A DNA stretch of 25,426 bases from a virus. Below, piece after piece: positions 1,914-16,682 of the stretch. The DNA lies in IMG/VR virus record IMGVR_UViG_3300046313_000195, positions 1 through 25,426 of that record; one strand, written 5' to 3'. A model generated the notes under the pieces. The model saw only the letters and a program-made list of their open reading frames with translations, searched no databases and was not told the DNA's origin. The stretch's first letter is position 1, and every line of letters starts with the position of its first letter. The position numbers and the translations under genes are program-made.

Positions 1914-1942
1914 GTATTTTGACTAGCTGTAGGAGAATTCCC

Positions 1943-4390
1943 ATGAAAGAAATCACGACTGAACAATTAAAACTTGAACTTCACCATGAAGAATCAATGC
2001 TTGAATCAGGGAGGTTACGCTTTGTAAAGGAGAATAGTAAAGCTGAAACAGGAGGGAGATTTTCCAGCACATTAGCAGGTAGTAGAATACTAGATAGAAA
2101 CATTGCTAAAGTAGAATCACTCATTAAAAATTGGAAGCAAGATGTTAAAGAGGGGAAGCCTACCCACGGGGTAAAAGCATACAGAACACTAGAGACAATC
2201 GACTCAGCAAAGCTTGCACTAATTACCAGCAAAACTATTCTGAATAACCTGATGAAGCCTATTCGCTTCAGTACACTAGCTTGCTCCATCGGTAGAGCAG
2301 TAGAACATGAAGAGAAGTTCAGTGGGTTTCGGGCTGAGAACCCACACTACGTCGACTCAGTTGTGAAAGCTTACAACAAGCGTGCTTCCTCCTCTCACTT
2401 TCGCACCCGTAGCCTTAACTACTTAGCAGAACAGAAGGGCTATGCGTGGGAGGCGTGGGGAGAAGATGTACACGCTCATGTAGGCTTTGCTCTATTCCAG
2501 ATGTTTAACAATGCTACGGGGCTTGTGAGCGTGGTAACACAGTATTCTGGTAAGCGTACTATTGACATGGTACAAGCCCAGCCTCAAGTCATCGAGTGGA
2601 TTAGAGACTTCAACGCCACTCAGGAATCCATTAACCCTAGATTCCTACCTACCCTAGTTCCTCCTAAGCCTTGGACTTCACCCGTAGATGGGGGTTACTA
2701 TCACCCACTGCTGCAGCGTCCGCTAGTAAAAGGCTGGGTGCGTAAGAGACAACGCCACCTACTGGCTGAATCTGAAATGCCTATGGTAATAGAAGCTCTT
2801 AACCACGTTCAGGAGACAGAGTGGTGCATCAATACTAAATTGCTTGCTGTGATGACTACTTGCTGGGAGAACAGCCTAGCAGATAAAGCACTGCCTAACA
2901 GAGATGACTTAGAGATTCTTCCCTGTCCTGTGGATAAGGATGTTAAGGTTGATCAGATGAACACCCAACAGAAGTTAGCTTTTGAAGTGTGGCGTGCTAA
3001 GGCTAGAGAGATTCGTAACACCAATGCTGAATCACGGGGTAAGCGTATCCAACTAGAACTCACCCTCAACCTAGCTAAAAGCTACAGAGAGAAGTCAATC
3101 TACTTTCCTCACAGCTTAGACTACAGAGGGAGAATCTACCCAATACCTGGTATGTTGAATCCTCAAGGCTCAGACAGTGTAAAGGCTTTGTTGATGTTCA
3201 AGCAGGGTGGAATCATTGAGAATCAGACTGCTGCTAACTGGCTGGCTGTACACGGTGCTAACTGCTTTGGGGTAGACAAAGTATCCTATGAGGAGCGTTT
3301 GGCTTGGGTACGGCAGAATGAGCAGGCTATCTTAGCGATTGCTGAAGAACCTTTAGACAACACCATGTGGGTAGAAGCAGATAGCCCTTGGCAGTTCTTA
3401 GCGTGGTGTCAAGAGTGGAGGGCTTTCAAGCAGCAGGGTATGGGGTTTGTTACTCATATCCCTGTTGGCTTGGATGGAAGCTGTAATGGGCTTCAACACT
3501 TCTCAGCTATGTTACGGGATGAAGCGGGTGCTGAGGCAGTCAACTTGATTCCTAACGAGAAGCCCGCTGACATCTACCAACGGGTGTGTGATGGAGTAAA
3601 AGCAGACCTACTGGCTATGCTTCCAACGGGTAGAGGGAAGCGGAGTGAAGAGGCTGTTTTTGCTAAGAAGTTTCTTGAGTGGGATAAGACCACACGGAAG
3701 CTGACTAAGCGTCCTGTTATGATTGTTCCTTACGGCGGTACTACTAGAGCTACGTTTAAATATACCCTAGAATACCTGAATGAACACAAGGATGCCCCCT
3801 TCAAAGACAACTATAAAGCAGCTCAGTTTGTTTCTAAAGTAATCTGGGATAACGTGGCTAAGGAAACGCAGTCAGCCCAGCAGGTGATGAAGTGGTTGCA
3901 GGGTATCGCTAGGAACATGAGCAAGGAAGACTCTACCATTGAGTGGACTACACCAAGTGGGTTTGTGGTTAGTATGGCAAACTTAACTACTTATGACAAG
4001 TTCTTAGAAGTGAAATTGTTTGATAGAAGATACCAAGTAAAATTAAAAGAGTATGCTCAAACAATTGATTCTAATCAGCAAGTCAGCGGTATCAGTCCTA
4101 ACTTTGTTCATGCGTTAGATGCTAGTGCCTTAGTCTTCTATGTAATGAGGGCAAAAGCTCAAGGCATCCCTAACCTAGCCCTCATCCACGACAGCTACGG
4201 TACGACAGCAGACCAAACAGAACTAGCTAGTCAGCTCCTACGGGAAGCGTTCGTTCAACTATACGCTGAACATGACGTGTTAGCTGAATTTAAATCACAA
4301 ATGCCAGTAGGTATGGCGAAGGAAGAGCCCCCCTCTCAAGGTGGGTTTGATATTAACCAAGTCTTATCTGCTGATTACTTTTTCGCATAA
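1943..4390 (+). CDS. 1: T7-type single-subunit RNA polymerase
   Basis: DNA-dependent RNA polymerase that would transcribe the phage middle and late genes. The start at 1943 follows TAGGAGAATTCCC (1930-1942), giving 815 residues; an upstream in-frame codon lacks a ribosome site. The catalytic elements are complete: YRGRIYPIP in the TxxGR region, GLDGSCNGLQHFSAM with Asp511 (T7 D537), KRPVMIVPYGG with Lys589 and Tyr597 (T7 K631 and Y639, same spacing), and HDSYG with Asp750 (T7 D812). The C-terminus DYFFA preserves the aromatic foot that T7 ends in (DFAFA). In the promoter-recognition region before SGISPNFVH the residues differ from those of T7, so its promoters should differ too. It is slightly shorter than T7 (883 residues). 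Confidence 0.97.
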   Translation: MKEITTEQLKLELHHEESMLESGRLRFVKENSKAETGGRFSSTLAGSRILDRNIAKVESLIKNWKQDVKEGKPTHGVKAYRTLETIDSAKLALITSKTILNNLMKPIRFSTLACSIGRAVEHEEKFSGFRAENPHYVDSVVKAYNKRASSSHFRTRSLNYLAEQKGYAWEAWGEDVHAHVGFALFQMFNNATGLVSVVTQYSGKRTIDMVQAQPQVIEWIRDFNATQESINPRFLPTLVPPKPWTSPVDGGYYHPLLQRPLVKGWVRKRQRHLLAESEMPMVIEALNHVQETEWCINTKLLAVMTTCWENSLADKALPNRDDLEILPCPVDKDVKVDQMNTQQKLAFEVWRAKAREIRNTNAESRGKRIQLELTLNLAKSYREKSIYFPHSLDYRGRIYPIPGMLNPQGSDSVKALLMFKQGGIIENQTAANWLAVHGANCFGVDKVSYEERLAWVRQNEQAILAIAEEPLDNTMWVEADSPWQFLAWCQEWRAFKQQGMGFVTHIPVGLDGSCNGLQHFSAMLRDEAGAEAVNLIPNEKPADIYQRVCDGVKADLLAMLPTGRGKRSEEAVFAKKFLEWDKTTRKLTKRPVMIVPYGGTTRATFKYTLEYLNEHKDAPFKDNYKAAQFVSKVIWDNVAKETQSAQQVMKWLQGIARNMSKEDSTIEWTTPSGFVVSMANLTTYDKFLEVKLFDRRYQVKLKEYAQTIDSNQQVSGISPNFVHALDASALVFYVMRAKAQGIPNLALIHDSYGTTADQTELASQLLREAFVQLYAEHDVLAEFKSQMPVGMAKEEPPSQGGFDINQVLSADYFFA

Positions 4391-4401
4391 GGAGAAACAA
4401 A

Positions 4402-4626
4402 ATGGTAGATAATAACAATTACTTTCCTATACTTATGGGGTGTATACTAGTGATGCCACTCCTTGTTATAGCAGTATCGCTATTCTTTATGCCTTGCCCT
4501 TTTGTAAAAATTGATGTGAAGCCTCCTGCCCCGTATAGAGAAAACGACTACACGGAACTGTTACAAGGGAAGCGTTACAAGGAAGAAAAGTATGGGGAAT
4601 TTAGGGAGTATAAAGATGAAAGCTAA
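4402..4626 (+). CDS. 74-residue membrane-anchored hypothetical protein
   Basis: Starts 11 bases after the RNA polymerase stop behind GGAG (4391-4394). About residues 8-31 form one hydrophobic span (YFPILMGC to SLFFMPC), after which comes a charged, Lys/Glu/Tyr-rich cytoplasmic-type tail with a PPAPY motif. There is no signal-peptidase pattern I would trust, although the Cys residues at the end of the span are notable. T7-like phages often carry small host-takeover genes directly after the polymerase, which is the best context for this one. Function unknown. It overlaps the next gene by 11 bases. Confidence 0.6.
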   Translation: MVDNNNYFPILMGCILVMPLLVIAVSLFFMPCPFVKIDVKPPAPYRENDYTELLQGKRYKEEKYGEFREYKDES

Positions 4627-4810
4627 ATGGGTAGCGTTGTTCAGGTTATTATGTTTCCAAATTCCTAATACAATTATCACATCAATGGATACCATATTTT
4701 TCTGTAACGAGGGTATCTCAGATATACGCTTAATAATAGAGCCACTACTAACAGAAGAAGTGAAACACCTACAACGGTGTCAAGCTATTCAAGAAACTCT
4801 TGAAGATTAA
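4616..4810 (+). CDS. 64-residue hypothetical protein, last gene of the RNA polymerase operon
   Basis: The ATG at 4616 is favoured over the in-frame codon at 4592 because AGGGAGT (4603-4609) lies at the right distance. The protein begins basic and amphipathic (MKAKWVALFRLLCF) and ends in an acidic helical stretch (TEEVKHLQRCQAIQETLED). It carries three cysteines without a clear metal-binding pattern. A strong terminator begins 11 bases after the stop, so this is the last gene of the unit that starts with RNA polymerase. I do not recognise a family. Confidence 0.55.
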   Translation: MKAKWVALFRLLCFQIPNTIITSMDTIFFCNEGISDIRLIIEPLLTEEVKHLQRCQAIQETLED

Positions 4811-4819
4811 AATCTAGTC

Positions 4820-4863
4820 AAAAAAAGCCTTACTTCCTTAACGGGAGGTAGGGCTTTTTTTTT
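4820..4863 (+). terminator. rho-independent terminator after the early operon
   Basis: A 12-bp stem (4826-4837 with 4844-4855, all positions paired if G-U is allowed) closes a six-base TTAACG loop and runs into nine T. The A run before the stem pairs with the T run, so the element could also work in the opposite direction. It ends the transcription unit holding RNA polymerase and its two small companions and insulates the RNA region that follows. Confidence 0.88.
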
Positions 4864-4912
4864 GTTTAAACCCGTAGACTCAATAGACATAGGTGTTTCA
4901 GCTTCAAAATAA

Positions 4913-4918
4913 TATAAT
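4913..4918 (+). promoter_or_regulatory. consensus -10 box ahead of the structured RNA
   Basis: A perfect TATAAT lies about 50 bases after the terminator and just before the first paired elements of the RNA region. The -35 side is weak: TAGACA at 4884-4889 is one base from TTGACA but too far away (23 bases). If used by the host polymerase, transcription would start close to 4925. Confidence 0.4.
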
Positions 4919-4924
4919 CAAGGT

Positions 4925-5466
4925 TTTGGAGAAAATCAGAGCTGGAAACGCACGGCTGACGGGCTTCTTCAGCACCACTTCCCATAGAAGAGAGAAACTT
5001 CGTATCGAACACTGTGTTCAACGTAATTCTTAGGACGCTATGTGGTCAATGACGCAAAGCTTCGTATCGTATAATCTCTCTTTAATTCTCAACAAAGCAT
5101 CCAACGCCAAAGCCTCGTTACCTAGAGTAGCAGGACATGGGAACTAGACGACACAGGAAGCTCACAGAAGTGATACGCATCCAAAAGATGGGATGCTTTG
5201 TTGAGAATTATTATAGTGATAGAGGTTATCTCCTTTCTCTCTATTACTCCTACCTACGGGCAAGCTTGAGCATTCAGCTTGTGGACTAGGGCAGGCTTGG
5301 TTCGCTAGTACCTCATCAAAAACTAGCACAATTTTAACAACTACAAGTAGGAGAAATCCAGCTGGTAGTTGTGGAACTTAACCACGCACATAGTGGGGTA
5401 GCGGTAGTGTTGTATTAACAATATTCCTGTGGTGAATCTTTTAGGTTTATCGCTACCCTTTTCTTT
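4925..5466 (+). ncRNA. candidate large structured non-coding RNA, about 540 nt
   Basis: There is no credible protein frame here, but the self-complementarity is dense. A 20-bp perfect helix joins 5083-5102 with 5191-5210. It is extended across an internal loop by 5071-5079 with 5221-5229, and an outer helix can form between 4989-4997 and 5234-5242. Local hairpins are 4955-4959/4969-4973, 5007-5011/5015-5019, 5115-5125/5144-5151 (with a bulge), 5261-5266/5276-5281, 5304-5309/5322-5327, 5337-5344/5365-5372 and 5396-5406/5448-5458. A -10 box at 4913 and a terminator-like last hairpin bracket the element, so it looks like an independent transcript. Size and phage setting recall the ROOL and GOLLD classes of giant phage RNAs, but I cannot match it to either by sequence. 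Strand is inferred from the T-rich 3' side. Confidence 0.6.
5396..5466 (+). terminator. terminal hairpin of the structured RNA
   Basis: Eleven consecutive pairs (5396-5406 with 5448-5458, one G-U) enclose a 41-nt loop that can fold further, for example TTGT/ACAA and ATTC/GAAT. The stem is followed by the pyrimidine-rich TTTTCTTTC. The long loop and interrupted T run make it a moderate terminator, but it is well placed as the 3' end of the RNA. Confidence 0.5.
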
Positions 5467-5485
5467 CATTCTTTCACTAAGAATG
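5467..5485 (+). other. short perfect hairpin, possible processing site
   Basis: CATTCTT (5467-5473) pairs perfectly with AAGAATG (5479-5485) around a five-base TCACT loop, directly after the T-rich end of the RNA candidate. In T7 the early and middle transcripts are cut by RNase III at stem-loops between genes. This one is short for RNase III, so it may only stabilise a 3' end. Confidence 0.3.
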
Positions 5486-5516
5486 CGACTAGAGAAGATG
5501 TGCTGGAGCAACTCTT

Positions 5517-5601
5517 AAGGGGGGTAGCAGCGGAGTCGGATGGGTCTTATTCACTTGAAATCGGTAAGATTTTGGGGGGTAAGGGGGGTAGCAGCGGAGT
5601 C
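5517..5601 (+). repeat. pair of 21-nt G-rich direct repeats
   Basis: The 21-nt unit at 5517-5537 (AAGGGGGGTAGCAGCGG and four more bases) is repeated exactly at 5581-5601, 64 bases downstream. A third GGGGGGTA stands at 5574-5581. The copies have no protein frame and I do not see the unit elsewhere in the window. In T7 the primary origin consists of two tandem phage promoters followed by an AT-rich tract. The same arrangement here makes these candidates for tandem promoters or origin-recognition sites, though they do not match the T7 promoter sequence. Confidence 0.55.
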
Positions 5602-5603
5602 AG

Positions 5604-5790
5604 ACAGGTTAGTATTCTTATACTTCTTCTTATTCTTATATATTCTTATTCTTCTTTAAGAATAATTCAGAAGTAATTAAGAATGAATATAACTATAATC
5701 TAACTTCTTATATATTCTTATTCTTCTTAAGGTTCTTATATATTCTTATATGTTTATATTTCTTTTAAATAAATTAACTCATTAGAGTTC
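5604..5790. other. AT-rich pyrimidine repeat tract, candidate replication origin
   Basis: Nearly all A and T with TTCTTAT-type repeats. A 24-nt unit at 5633-5656 recurs exactly at 5705-5728, and 16 of its bases recur at 5733-5748. A perfect 8-bp hairpin lies at 5646-5665. The strand bias (T and C on the + strand) is strong. Placement directly after the G-rich tandem repeats, downstream of the RNA polymerase gene and upstream of the SSB gene, is what is expected of a T7-type primary origin. No protein frame is present. Confidence 0.5.
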
Positions 5791-5825
5791 TATAGGTATT
5801 AACAGCAGTTATGTTGTTGATTAAA

Positions 5826-5841
5826 GCTAGCTTAGTCTAGC
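5826..5841 (+). other. small hairpin in the leader of the SSB gene
   Basis: GCTAG (5826-5830) and CTAGC (5837-5841) form a 5-bp stem about 50 bases before the SSB start. TTAAAGCT is repeated on both sides of it (5821 and 5846). It could stabilise the 5' end of the SSB message. Evidence is limited to the pairing. Confidence 0.25.
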
Positions 5842-5889
5842 ATCGTTAAAGCTGTACGCAAGTATCGCTAATTGGAGAGGTAAATTAAA

Positions 5890-6615
5890 TTGGTAAAAGC
5901 TAAATCAGACATTACGCCACGGGGTACTGTTCAATATCCAGCAATCTTTAAACCGAAAGCGTTTAAGGGTGAAACAAAACGTGAATACAGTATCTTATTG
6001 GTGCTGAAACAAGAAGAAAAATCAACACAAGATTTGATTGATAAGGTTGACTCCTTCATCTATGATGTCTTGGAAGAAAACAAAGCTCGTATCAACACAG
6101 CTATTGTAGACAAAGAAAAAAAAGATAAAGCATACAAGAGTTTAGCTCCTGAGTTTAAAGCTCCTAGTACGTTTATCACCAAACCTTACTCAACACATGA
6201 AGATGATCCAGAGAAAGTACCTTCAGGCACTGTTGTATTCAAGTTCTCAACACAAGCTGAGTTCACAGACAAGACTACTGGCGTTACGAAAGAGAAAACT
6301 TTACTTGTTGTAGATGCTAAGAATAATCCTATTAAGGATTCTAGCTTAAACATGGGTAACGATTCTGTTGTTCGTATTCAATTCAAACCTTACTGCACCG
6401 AGTTCAAAGCTAATGGTTTAGAGCTATACGCTAAGTTAGGCTTAGAAGTGGTTCAGGTTATTAAGTTTGTTGAATGGACTCCTGGTGAAACTACTAACCT
6501 ATTTGGTGTTGTAGATGATGAAGATGGTTTTGAGTTCGATGGTGAATCAGTTACTGCTGTAGGTTCAACTGCTCAGGAAGAAGGTGTAGATGAAGAAGAC
6601 CCGTTCGCTCAGTAG
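5890..6615 (+). CDS. 2.5: single-stranded DNA-binding protein (T7 gp2.5 type)
   Basis: Coats single-stranded DNA and coordinates polymerase and helicase at the fork. 241 residues, close to T7 gp2.5 (232). The N-terminal part has the pattern of phage OB-fold SSBs: TPRGTVQYPAIFKPKAFKG, then REYSILLVLK and a helical Lys/Glu segment. A later strand pair contains YCTEFKANGLELYAKLGLEVV. The C-terminus is strongly acidic and ends DEEDPFAQ, with an aromatic residue near the end like the gp2.5 tail that docks on polymerase and helicase. The start is TTG, supported by GGAGAGG (5874-5880) nine bases upstream, with no better ATG nearby. Its end overlaps the endonuclease gene by 26 bases. Confidence 0.85.
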   Translation: MVKAKSDITPRGTVQYPAIFKPKAFKGETKREYSILLVLKQEEKSTQDLIDKVDSFIYDVLEENKARINTAIVDKEKKDKAYKSLAPEFKAPSTFITKPYSTHEDDPEKVPSGTVVFKFSTQAEFTDKTTGVTKEKTLLVVDAKNNPIKDSSLNMGNDSVVRIQFKPYCTEFKANGLELYAKLGLEVVQVIKFVEWTPGETTNLFGVVDDEDGFEFDGESVTAVGSTAQEEGVDEEDPFAQ

Positions 6616-7036: not shown

Positions 7037-7586
7037 GGATTGTTGGCAATTACCCTTAATGGGTAGTATGGTTTTATATGATTTCTTTGTTGGTACAACT
7101 CAAGGCTCTAGTGAGAATCTGCTTGATCAATTTATGGATTTACACACCACACAGAAGATAGCCATAGTAGGACGTTTAACTGGTGTGGCTTCAGTTATTG
7201 CAGAAGTGCAGGATAGGTTTGGTAGTGGTGTTACAATTATTTCAGGTTGGCAAGCTGGGAAACAGGACTCACGGTTTTCTCTTGGTGATGGCTTTTGGCA
7301 CTCCCAAGGGGAGGCTGCTACCATTAGGGTTAATGGTGTCCCTGCGAAAGAGGTATATGAATTTCTGGACGGCTACATGTCGGGCTGGGGTGGGTTGCGT
7401 CTCGGTGAAGGTGCAGTGTACTTTGATATTCGGAAGAAACCTTGGCGGAGTAAGCCCGTTGAGAATCCACTTGAATTTTATAGTACGGAACGGTGCTTCA
7501 ACTGTGGTTTCAATTTAAAGCTGAATACACCTGACTGGCAGAAGCAGACTGGGTGTCCTAGATGCCACAAAAGCTTTTGCGATTAA
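6996..7586 (+). CDS. M15-peptidase-like protein with degenerate zinc site and C-terminal zinc ribbon
   Basis: It occupies the slot of T7 lysozyme (gp3.5), between endonuclease I and primase. Residues about 75-146 resemble the M15_3 peptidoglycan peptidases (ISGWQAGKQDSRFSLGDGF, WHSQGEAATIRV, GGLRLGEGAVYFDIR). The family's HxxGxAxD is HSQGEAAT here (His102 kept, Asp replaced by Thr109), and the later HxD ligand motif is Tyr142-Phe-Asp. Two of three zinc ligands are thus missing, so peptidase activity is unlikely. Cys167, Cys170, Cys187 and Cys190 form a zinc-ribbon pattern at the end. By analogy with T7 lysozyme it might bind the RNA polymerase, but that is inference. The start is uncertain: GTG at 6996 touches the ribosome site, and TTG at 7005 is better spaced from GGAAGG (6991-6996). 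Confidence 0.7.
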   Translation: MVHLNTLKDLLGTKDCWQLPLMGSMVLYDFFVGTTQGSSENLLDQFMDLHTTQKIAIVGRLTGVASVIAEVQDRFGSGVTIISGWQAGKQDSRFSLGDGFWHSQGEAATIRVNGVPAKEVYEFLDGYMSGWGGLRLGEGAVYFDIRKKPWRSKPVENPLEFYSTERCFNCGFNLKLNTPDWQKQTGCPRCHKSFCD

Positions 7587-7602: not shown

Positions 7603-9279
7603 ATGTCAAGAGATTTTCTGAGACATGAGCCTTGCCTTAGTTGTAGGTCAAGTAACAACCTCGCTATTTACTCTGATGGGTATGCTAAATGCTTCTCATC
7701 AGGGTGTGACTACTACACCTATGACTACTTTGAGGAGGGTATAAAGCGAGTGACGGATAAGGAAAGAGATACTACGTTCATTCAGGGGGCATACGGGACA
7801 CTCCAAAAGAGGAAACTCACAGAGAAGACTTGTAGATTCTGGGGATGTCATGTATCGAAATACAAGGGAAAGCTAACAGGGGGCGTTGAAGCATTCGTTA
7901 CCATTTTTGATTACAAGAATGCTGACGGGGGTTTAGTTGCTCAGAAGGTTAGAACAAAAGATAAACAGTTCTCTGTTATAGGGGCTGGTAAAGAACTCCC
8001 TCTATTTGGGATTCACTTGTGGGCTAATGCCCGTAAGAACACCCTGGTAATTACAGAGGGAGAATATGATGCTATGGCAGTATCACAAACTAACGGATTA
8101 TTATATCCAGTTGTTAGTATACCTAACGGGTGTGGTGGTGCTGTAAAAGCAATAACAAGAAACTTGGATTGGGTAGAAAGCTTTGACGAAGTCATCATCA
8201 TGTTTGATACCGACACAGTAGGCAGAGAGGCTGCCACTGCTGTAGCTCAAGTTCTCTCACCAGGTAAGGCTAAGATTGTTAATTTACCTGTTAAAGATGC
8301 TAACGAAATGCTTATAGCTGACAGGACTGAGGAGCTTAGGTGGGCTTATAAAAACCTAGCTACTCCTTACAGACCTGACTCTATCATTTCATTTGCAGAT
8401 GCTATTAAGCTCAGTAAAACAAAAGTTGAAGATGGCGTACCATACCCGTGGGAATCTTTAAACAAGGTTCTCATGGGTATTCGTCCAAGAGAGATTATTA
8501 CTATTGGGGCTGGTACGGGTGTAGGTAAGACAGAGTTCGTGGCTGAAGTAGCTGCTCACTTTGTCAAACACAAACTCGCTAGTATTGGCTTATTTAGTTT
8601 TGAGATGAGTAGTGGAGCTATGGCTCTACAGCTGGCTGGAAAGCTTGATGATACTCCTTATCACAAACCTGGTACGGAATATAGTCAAGAGAAGCTAGAC
8701 GCTACCATGCAGGTTATAGAGGCTACAGGATTAGTCCACCTCTATGACCACAACGGGTCTGCTGAATGGGATAAGGTTCAGCACGCTATACGTTATATGC
8801 ACTTGGTTCACGGTACATCAATCTTCTTTATTGACAACCTCACACAGCTTGCTACGAATCAAGAGATTGATGAGCGATTGGCGTTAGAGAAGATAATGAG
8901 TGCTTCTAGTGCTTTGGTTCACAACTTAGGTATCACTATCATCTTCGTGTCTCACTTGCTTGCTCCTGAGAAGGGAACAACACATGAGCAGGGGGGTATT
9001 GTTTTACCTAGGCAGTTCAAAGGTGGACGATCTATTCAGCAGTGGTCTTTCCTCATGCTCGGTATTGAGCGTAATTCGTTGTCAGAGAATCCAACAGAAC
9101 GGAATCAGATAACGGTACGGGTTGTTAAAGACAGGACTTTAGGTTCAACTGGTCAAACCTTCAACCTCGCTTTTGATCCCACTACAAACAGAATACACGG
9201 AGATAGTTCTTTTGAAATTGGAAATTCCCCTATGCTGTTAGAGGCTGTTGAAGAAGAAGAGGAGGATGCTTTTGTCTAG
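7603..9279 (+). CDS. 4: primase-helicase (T7 gp4)
   Basis: Unwinds DNA at the fork and lays down primers. 558 residues (T7 gp4A 566). The N-terminal zinc-binding domain has Cys11, Cys14, Cys30 and Cys35; the last pair is spaced CFSSGC, wider than in T7. The TOPRIM primase domain shows VITEGEYDAM with Glu152 and FDTDTVG with Asp202 and Asp204. The RecA/DnaB-type helicase domain has Walker A GAGTGVGKT with Lys309, GLFSFEMSS, IFFIDNLTQLA (Walker B) and IIFVSHL. The tail EEEEEDAFV is acidic with an aromatic residue, as in T7, where it contacts DNA polymerase. Start supported by AGGAGG (7591-7596). Confidence 0.97.
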   Translation: MSRDFLRHEPCLSCRSSNNLAIYSDGYAKCFSSGCDYYTYDYFEEGIKRVTDKERDTTFIQGAYGTLQKRKLTEKTCRFWGCHVSKYKGKLTGGVEAFVTIFDYKNADGGLVAQKVRTKDKQFSVIGAGKELPLFGIHLWANARKNTLVITEGEYDAMAVSQTNGLLYPVVSIPNGCGGAVKAITRNLDWVESFDEVIIMFDTDTVGREAATAVAQVLSPGKAKIVNLPVKDANEMLIADRTEELRWAYKNLATPYRPDSIISFADAIKLSKTKVEDGVPYPWESLNKVLMGIRPREIITIGAGTGVGKTEFVAEVAAHFVKHKLASIGLFSFEMSSGAMALQLAGKLDDTPYHKPGTEYSQEKLDATMQVIEATGLVHLYDHNGSAEWDKVQHAIRYMHLVHGTSIFFIDNLTQLATNQEIDERLALEKIMSASSALVHNLGITIIFVSHLLAPEKGTTHEQGGIVLPRQFKGGRSIQQWSFLMLGIERNSLSENPTERNQITVRVVKDRTLGSTGQTFNLAFDPTTNRIHGDSSFEIGNSPMLLEAVEEEEEDAFV

Positions 9280-16640: not shown

Positions 16641-16682
16641 CAATTAAATAGACAATTAAACAGAAACGGAATCACAATTAAA
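16641..16682 (+). promoter_or_regulatory. A-rich leader of the capsid gene with three CAATTAAA repeats
   Basis: CAATTAAA occurs at 16641, 16653 and 16675 in the short gap before the capsid start, the last copy running into the ATG. There is no strong Shine-Dalgarno sequence (only GGA near 16668), although capsid is normally the most heavily made protein. An unstructured A-rich leader could provide ribosome access. I do not find the T7 promoter sequence here. Confidence 0.3.

Follow-up and report, generated by a model that had tools for sequence, protein, structure and literature searches.

A structured non-coding gap between the RNA polymerase and SSB genes of a distant T7-like phage, tentatively read as a transcribed origin or leader region

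T7-like phages retain few non-coding bases. In the virus record IMGVR_UViG_3300046313_000195, however, 1,079 nt (positions 4811-5889) separate the genes on the RNA polymerase (RNAP) side from the gene for the single-stranded DNA-binding protein (SSB). We analysed the whole stretch of 25,426 nt, referred to here as the window. An earlier reading made from the letters alone (the sequence-only reading) had placed in this gap a free-standing structured RNA of about 540 nt and suggested that the host transcribes it independently.

The phage and the ends of the gap

The window has a T7-like gene order of RNAP, two small ORFs, the gap, SSB (start codon TTG, with GGAGAGG upstream) and endonuclease I (Table 1). 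Downstream of endonuclease I, the lengths and order of the ORFs were taken to indicate primase/helicase and DNA polymerase genes, and a capsid protein is found at 16682. Among the matches listed, the RNAP was 34-37% identical to those of named Autographiviridae over 94-100% of its length (tblastn) and the major capsid protein about 31% identical, so that the phage is distant from the described genera. No such RNAP was found in cellular genomes by a search whose patterns were chosen automatically from poorly conserved RNAP regions.

No credible protein was found in 4811-5889, in agreement with the sequence-only reading. No start-codon ORF of at least 60 aa is present in any frame, and the stop-to-stop frames gave neither a Pfam match nor a PHROG match of meaningful E-value, on which ground a hidden or frameshifted protein was rejected. 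The longest of these frames (85 codons, 5419-5676, no family match) is by a rough estimate within chance length. A possible 58-codon GTG ORF (5500-5676, plus strand) crosses the direct repeats of Table 1 and has a hydrophobic end, ILILLLILIYSY; its enclosing stop-to-stop frame has no family match either.

The strong terminator described before the RNA is real and probably closes the early host-transcribed block. The only DNA match of the gap among the loci fetched is a weak one (L013 6451-6492, 81% over 42 nt) that covers this terminator (4822-4863). The perfect TATAAT at 4913-4918 is likewise present but without a good -35 element, the nearest being TAGACA at 23 nt; TAGACA-18-AATAAT has the better spacing. 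Shuffled sequence gives more promoter-like sites (4.2) than the actual sequence (2). The terminator-like hairpin reported at the 3' side was not recovered, as no such site was found 3' of the structured part. Since there is neither a convincing promoter nor a 3' terminator, a free-standing host-transcribed unit is unsupported by the sequence.

Table 1. Features in and around the gap (positions in the window)
Feature	Positions	Strand	Remarks
T7-like single-subunit RNA polymerase gene	1919-4390	+	tblastn, Autographiviridae RNAPs
Small ORF	4402-4626	+	no family match
Small ORF	4592-4810	+	no family match
Strong intrinsic terminator	4820-4861	+	19 pairs, U tail
Sigma70-like site, weak	4884-4918	+	TAGACA-18-AATAAT; TATAAT at 4913-4918; not above chance
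5' hairpin (predicted)	4922-4976	+	4922-4937/4961-4976, inner 4940-4944/4953-4957; pair probability 0.87-0.96
Domain closed by outer 9-bp helix (predicted)	4989-5242	+	4989-4997/5234-5242, with 5071-5079/5221-5229 nested inside
20-bp perfect helix	5083-5210	+	5083-5102/5191-5210, two inner hairpins
3' part of structured RNA (predicted)	5211-5515	+	pairs in 5215-5248, 5260-5282, 5337-5372 and 5458-5497
30-nt direct repeat, copy 1	5516-5545	+	TAAGGGGGGTAGCAGCGGAGTC...; chance expectation 0.02
Exact GGGGGGTAAGGGGGG	5574-5588	+	found too at L010 7852-7866 and L011 3157-3171, in the equivalent place on the same strand
30-nt direct repeat, copy 2	5580-5609	+	64 nt downstream of copy 1, 90% identical
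AT-rich stretch (82%)	5611-5790		degenerate TATTCTTATA/TATTCTTCTT-type repeats
gp2.5-like ssDNA-binding protein (SSB)	5890-6615	+	PHROG 112, E 4e-20

Predicted fold of the plus strand

On the plus strand the stretch 4905-5470 folds at -177.1 kcal/mol, compared with -140.2 +- 6.6 kcal/mol for shuffled sequences (z -5.58; 0 of 100 shuffles as good), and on the minus strand at -154.1 kcal/mol (z -2.55). The helix domain 5083-5210 reaches z -6.7, and with this domain cut out the plus strand still gives z -4.2; the part 5211-5470 alone gives -4.3 on the plus and -1.6 on the minus strand, and the first third (4905-5082) folds weakly (-1.4). Windows of 200 nt across the phage have a mean z of -0.53 +- 1.26, and because a few of them inside genes reach -3 to -4.7, a low z in a short piece calls for caution. 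The lowest plus-strand value of such windows (-4.7, 40 shuffles) lies at 8401-8600, inside the putative primase/helicase coding sequence.

Several helices of the sequence-only reading stand. Its 20-bp perfect helix was found, and no other inverted repeat in the window has an exact seed of 11 nt at a distance of up to 300 nt; the 9-bp extension said to stack on it (5071-5079/5221-5229) exists and nests with it. The outer 9-bp helix exists and nests as well, but is slightly less stable than a competing pairing of 4988-4995 with 5075-5082, which the minimum fold contains together with a pairing of 5215-5225 with 5238-5248. The nested three-helix fold lies 2.7-5 kcal/mol above this minimum, and both are plausible. 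The extent given for the RNA, 4905-5470, holds a strong fold but has to be corrected at its end, as predicted pairs reach to about 5506: the 3' part also includes a three-way element at 5397-5457 and a closing helix 5323-5330/5499-5506. A direct repeat (AAACTTCGTATCG and AAGCTTCGTATCG, at 4995-5007 and 5057-5069) is present within the structured region.

The proposal that the RNA might belong to a known class found no support. Rfam 15 gave no match in the region at gathering scores and only terminator-like matches (4800-4977) at E<=10; ROOL, GOLLD, OLE and HEARO were rejected, as were group I/II introns and tmRNA, the latter not being found by ARAGORN either. A structured plus-strand RNA in the gap is credible, and it falls outside the known families.

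Two related contigs with an equivalent gap

No match to the gap DNA was found among 50,697 phage records. The closest RNAPs, at 46-47% identity to that of the window, are those of two IMG/VR contigs, L010 (40.3 kb) and L011. In both, about 640 nt free of ORFs lie at the equivalent place, forming a gap that opens with a strong terminator (the counterpart in L010 is at 7464-7486) and folds with z values of -3.9 and -4.3. Because of this syntenic non-coding gap in the two relatives, the region is not a one-off. Searches via SSB, RNAP and conserved RNAP motifs found the gap common only to L010 and L011. A gap of at least 250 nt after RNAP was absent in the 78 further RNAP contigs of a first search and in about 100 of a second, making some 180 other relatives without a comparable gap.

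Between L010 and L011 the gap diverges by 4.1%, while third codon positions diverge by 24% in SSB and by 5.3% in RNAP. The low divergence of the gap fits sequence constraint, but mosaic exchange could be an alternative cause. Towards the 3' end of RNAP (L010 about 7165-7450), divergence between the two contigs rises from 0-3% to 12-15% per 100 nt within some of the final 300 nt, before dropping to about 3% in the gap. Such a jump may mark a mosaic or recombination boundary.

The gap RNA of the two relatives differs from that of the window in both sequence and predicted shape. Structural homology was rejected, as a covariance model (R1) of the L010/L011 core gave only terminator-like matches to the window. 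Outside the G tract described below, a shuffle test found no significant similarity between the window and the two gaps; the whole match chain without the G tract was not significant, and a candidate shared motif, ACTTCCCATAGAAGAGAGAAAC (window 4977-4998, L010 7692-7713), was rejected because it reached only the 95% level of shuffles. The L010 gap gave only weak chance matches in the phage DNA collection and no ROOL or GOLLD match in Rfam at E<=1.

The only sequence that the window gap shares with L010 and L011 is the exact 15-mer GGGGGGTAAGGGGGG, for which 3 of 200 shuffles were as good under gapped scoring. Among the first 97 loci fetched (of which L001-L003 are the window itself) it occurs only in the window phage, L010 and L011, with one copy in the 40 kb of L010. 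Of 103 RNAP contigs in a second set, only L099, which is identical with the contig L011, has G6-N1-4-G6 within 3.5 kb downstream. The G tract is nevertheless frequent among viral contigs in general. A strong, three-layer G-quadruplex is predicted at this tract in L010 (-23.9 versus -1.0 kcal/mol), whereas the one in the window is weak and in its context is outcompeted by hairpins.

In the window the G tract is located in the two direct repeats, which share an identical core of 22 nt, and the AT-richest 150 nt (5631-5780) follow directly after them; L010 has its AT-rich part ahead of the structured part instead of behind the G tract. Further copies of the repeat are absent from the window when three mismatches are allowed, for which reason the repeats were rejected as general phage promoters and would rather be origin-only promoters or other origin elements. 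A recurring phage promoter was found neither in the window nor in L010.

A candidate origin and its alternatives

The primary origin of T7 lies between gene 1 and gene 1.1, where two tandem promoters precede an AT-rich cluster. The layout of the window is similar: directly after RNAP, the two small ORFs and the terminator, and before SSB, repeated elements (5516-5545 and 5580-5609) stand directly before an AT maximum, and a single primase-type site, GGGTC (5542-5546), is close to that maximum. Where T7 has tandem promoters, the window has two identical cores 64 nt apart. Unlike the T7 promoters, these are G-tract elements that do not recur in the manner of a general phage promoter, and unlike the T7 origin they are preceded by about 600 nt of structured RNA. 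Since the folded element adjoins G-rich repeats and the AT-richest stretch in the position of the T7 origin, a cis-acting role is suggested. We tentatively read 4820-5889 as the early/middle junction and likely primary origin, with the folded transcript as a pre-primer or leader, an assignment that we regard as a serious possibility rather than a probable one. A transcribed origin or leader region is in any case better supported than an independent ornate RNA.

In such an origin, early host transcription would end at the terminator, and about 600 nt (approximately 4920-5515) would be transcribed on the plus strand, by the phage polymerase or perhaps by host read-through, into a leader or pre-primer RNA with extensive folding. 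The origin proper would consist of the two repeats with their G6 runs and of the AT-rich stretch 5611-5790, and there the nascent G-rich RNA could stay paired to its template in an R-loop or pause as a G-quadruplex. By analogy with other systems, this hybrid or quadruplex might stop or anchor the transcript, and the 3' end of the RNA might prime DNA synthesis.

The strand bias of the fold, the succession of a terminator and a structured non-coding gap in both lineages, the low divergence of the gap in L010 and L011, the exact G-tract match on the same strand and the strong quadruplex prediction in L010 are all in line with the transcribed origin. Against it stand the reversed order of AT-rich and structured parts in L010, which conflicts with a strict common layout, the general frequency of the G tract and the only moderate significance of its match, the weak quadruplex of the window, the lack of a recurring phage promoter in the window or L010, and mosaic exchange as another source of the low divergence. 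External parallels favour the origin. PMC12839067 cites Saito et al. 1980 for a T7 primary origin just downstream of RNAP, and in LUZ100, the nearest phage found with a transcript map (PMC10134795), two phage promoters, phi2 and phi3, are annotated directly after RNAP.

Two further systems offer analogies for the priming step. The ColE1 pre-primer, RNA II, measures about 555 nt and can adopt two alternative conformations (PMC11012335). It is comparable to the window in that a folded transcript of about 550-600 nt, for which more than one conformation is possible, precedes a G-rich element and an origin. ColE1 differs in being a plasmid that uses the host polymerase and is controlled by antisense RNA I; no relationship in sequence was found (the Rfam scan was negative), and priming in the window is only proposed. 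The persistent RNA-DNA hybrid that RNase H cleaves at a ColE1-type origin is, for the window, an analogy only. At CSB II in human mitochondria the T7-type polymerase POLRMT is stopped by a quadruplex in the nascent RNA, an event linked to the formation of primers (PMC4357710). The CSB II/7S RNA region shares with the window a non-template tract of the G6-N-G6 type, a T7-family polymerase and the AT-rich DNA that follows, but there is no homology, and the quadruplex potential of the window is weak in context. It could be, though we consider it unlikely, that this lineage swapped a promoter plus AT-rich origin for a structured pre-primer RNA plus a G-tract R-loop or quadruplex element and, as part of the same scenario, that this element is read by the T7-type polymerase of the phage in independent resemblance to ColE1 RNA II and CSB II. 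If the origin reading were true, the phage would offer a compact system in which a T7-family polymerase primes via a folded transcript and a G tract, and a tractable parallel to mitochondrial replication priming.

That the gap encodes a free-standing, trans-acting RNA of a new class (about 540-600 nt), which would be produced early and would target components of the host or the phage, is possible but doubtful. The very strong strand-specific folding over some 600 nt, the two nearly isoenergetic elaborate folds and the lack of a protein frame or an Rfam match agree with it, and so does a likeness to the ornate RNAs ROOL and GOLLD, which are phage-encoded, 500-800 nt in size and elaborately folded. 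ROOL and GOLLD frequently adjoin tRNAs (PMC12286853), and a degenerate tRNA-Leu is located 3 kb from the gap. Both classes are also characterised by a covarying structure with multiple pseudoknots and by a homo-oligomeric cage. Unlike these RNAs, the window element has no covariance-model match at E<=10, and neither a promoter nor a terminator that would convincingly belong to it was found; moreover, no homologue of the RNA was detected in phages or in the fetched IMG/VR contigs, and the gap RNA of the relatives has another sequence and predicted shape. If the RNA does act in trans, it would be a new class of large phage RNA that, unlike ROOL and GOLLD, is not set in a tRNA island. Under either reading the locus marks an RNA feature that would be missed when T7-like phages are annotated.

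RNase III cleaves the early and middle mRNAs of T7 at intergenic hairpins. The fold, which is on the sense strand of SSB and directly upstream of it, might be an extended, structured 5' leader on the mRNA of the SSB operon, with elements for RNase III processing, for stability or for control of SSB translation, and a 20-bp perfect helix has the typical length of an RNase III substrate. A leader of 600 nt followed by 370 nt of repeats and AT-rich DNA far exceeds the T7 processing sites, however, and about 180 relatives manage without one, so that we consider this explanation rather unlikely.

Neutral or decayed DNA, left by lost early genes or an inserted element and folding well by chance, would be in line with the missing homologues and with the z of -3 to -4.7 of other 200-nt windows, some in genes, but is improbable in view of the z of -5.6 over 566 nt and its strand asymmetry, of an inverted repeat with 20 perfect bp, which chance would not be expected to yield in 25 kb, of the syntenic gap with low divergence in two related contigs and of the few non-coding bases that such phages keep.

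The degenerate tRNA gene is a tRNA-Leu(UAA) at 1714-1797 on the minus strand, with an intact 3' half and a poor 5' half, and scores below the Rfam cut-off. No integrase was seen in the window, and the 3' part had no exact 39-nt match in GTDB species genomes. It looks like an attP remnant, and its place upstream of RNAP has a parallel in LUZ100 and a Limnohabitans phage.
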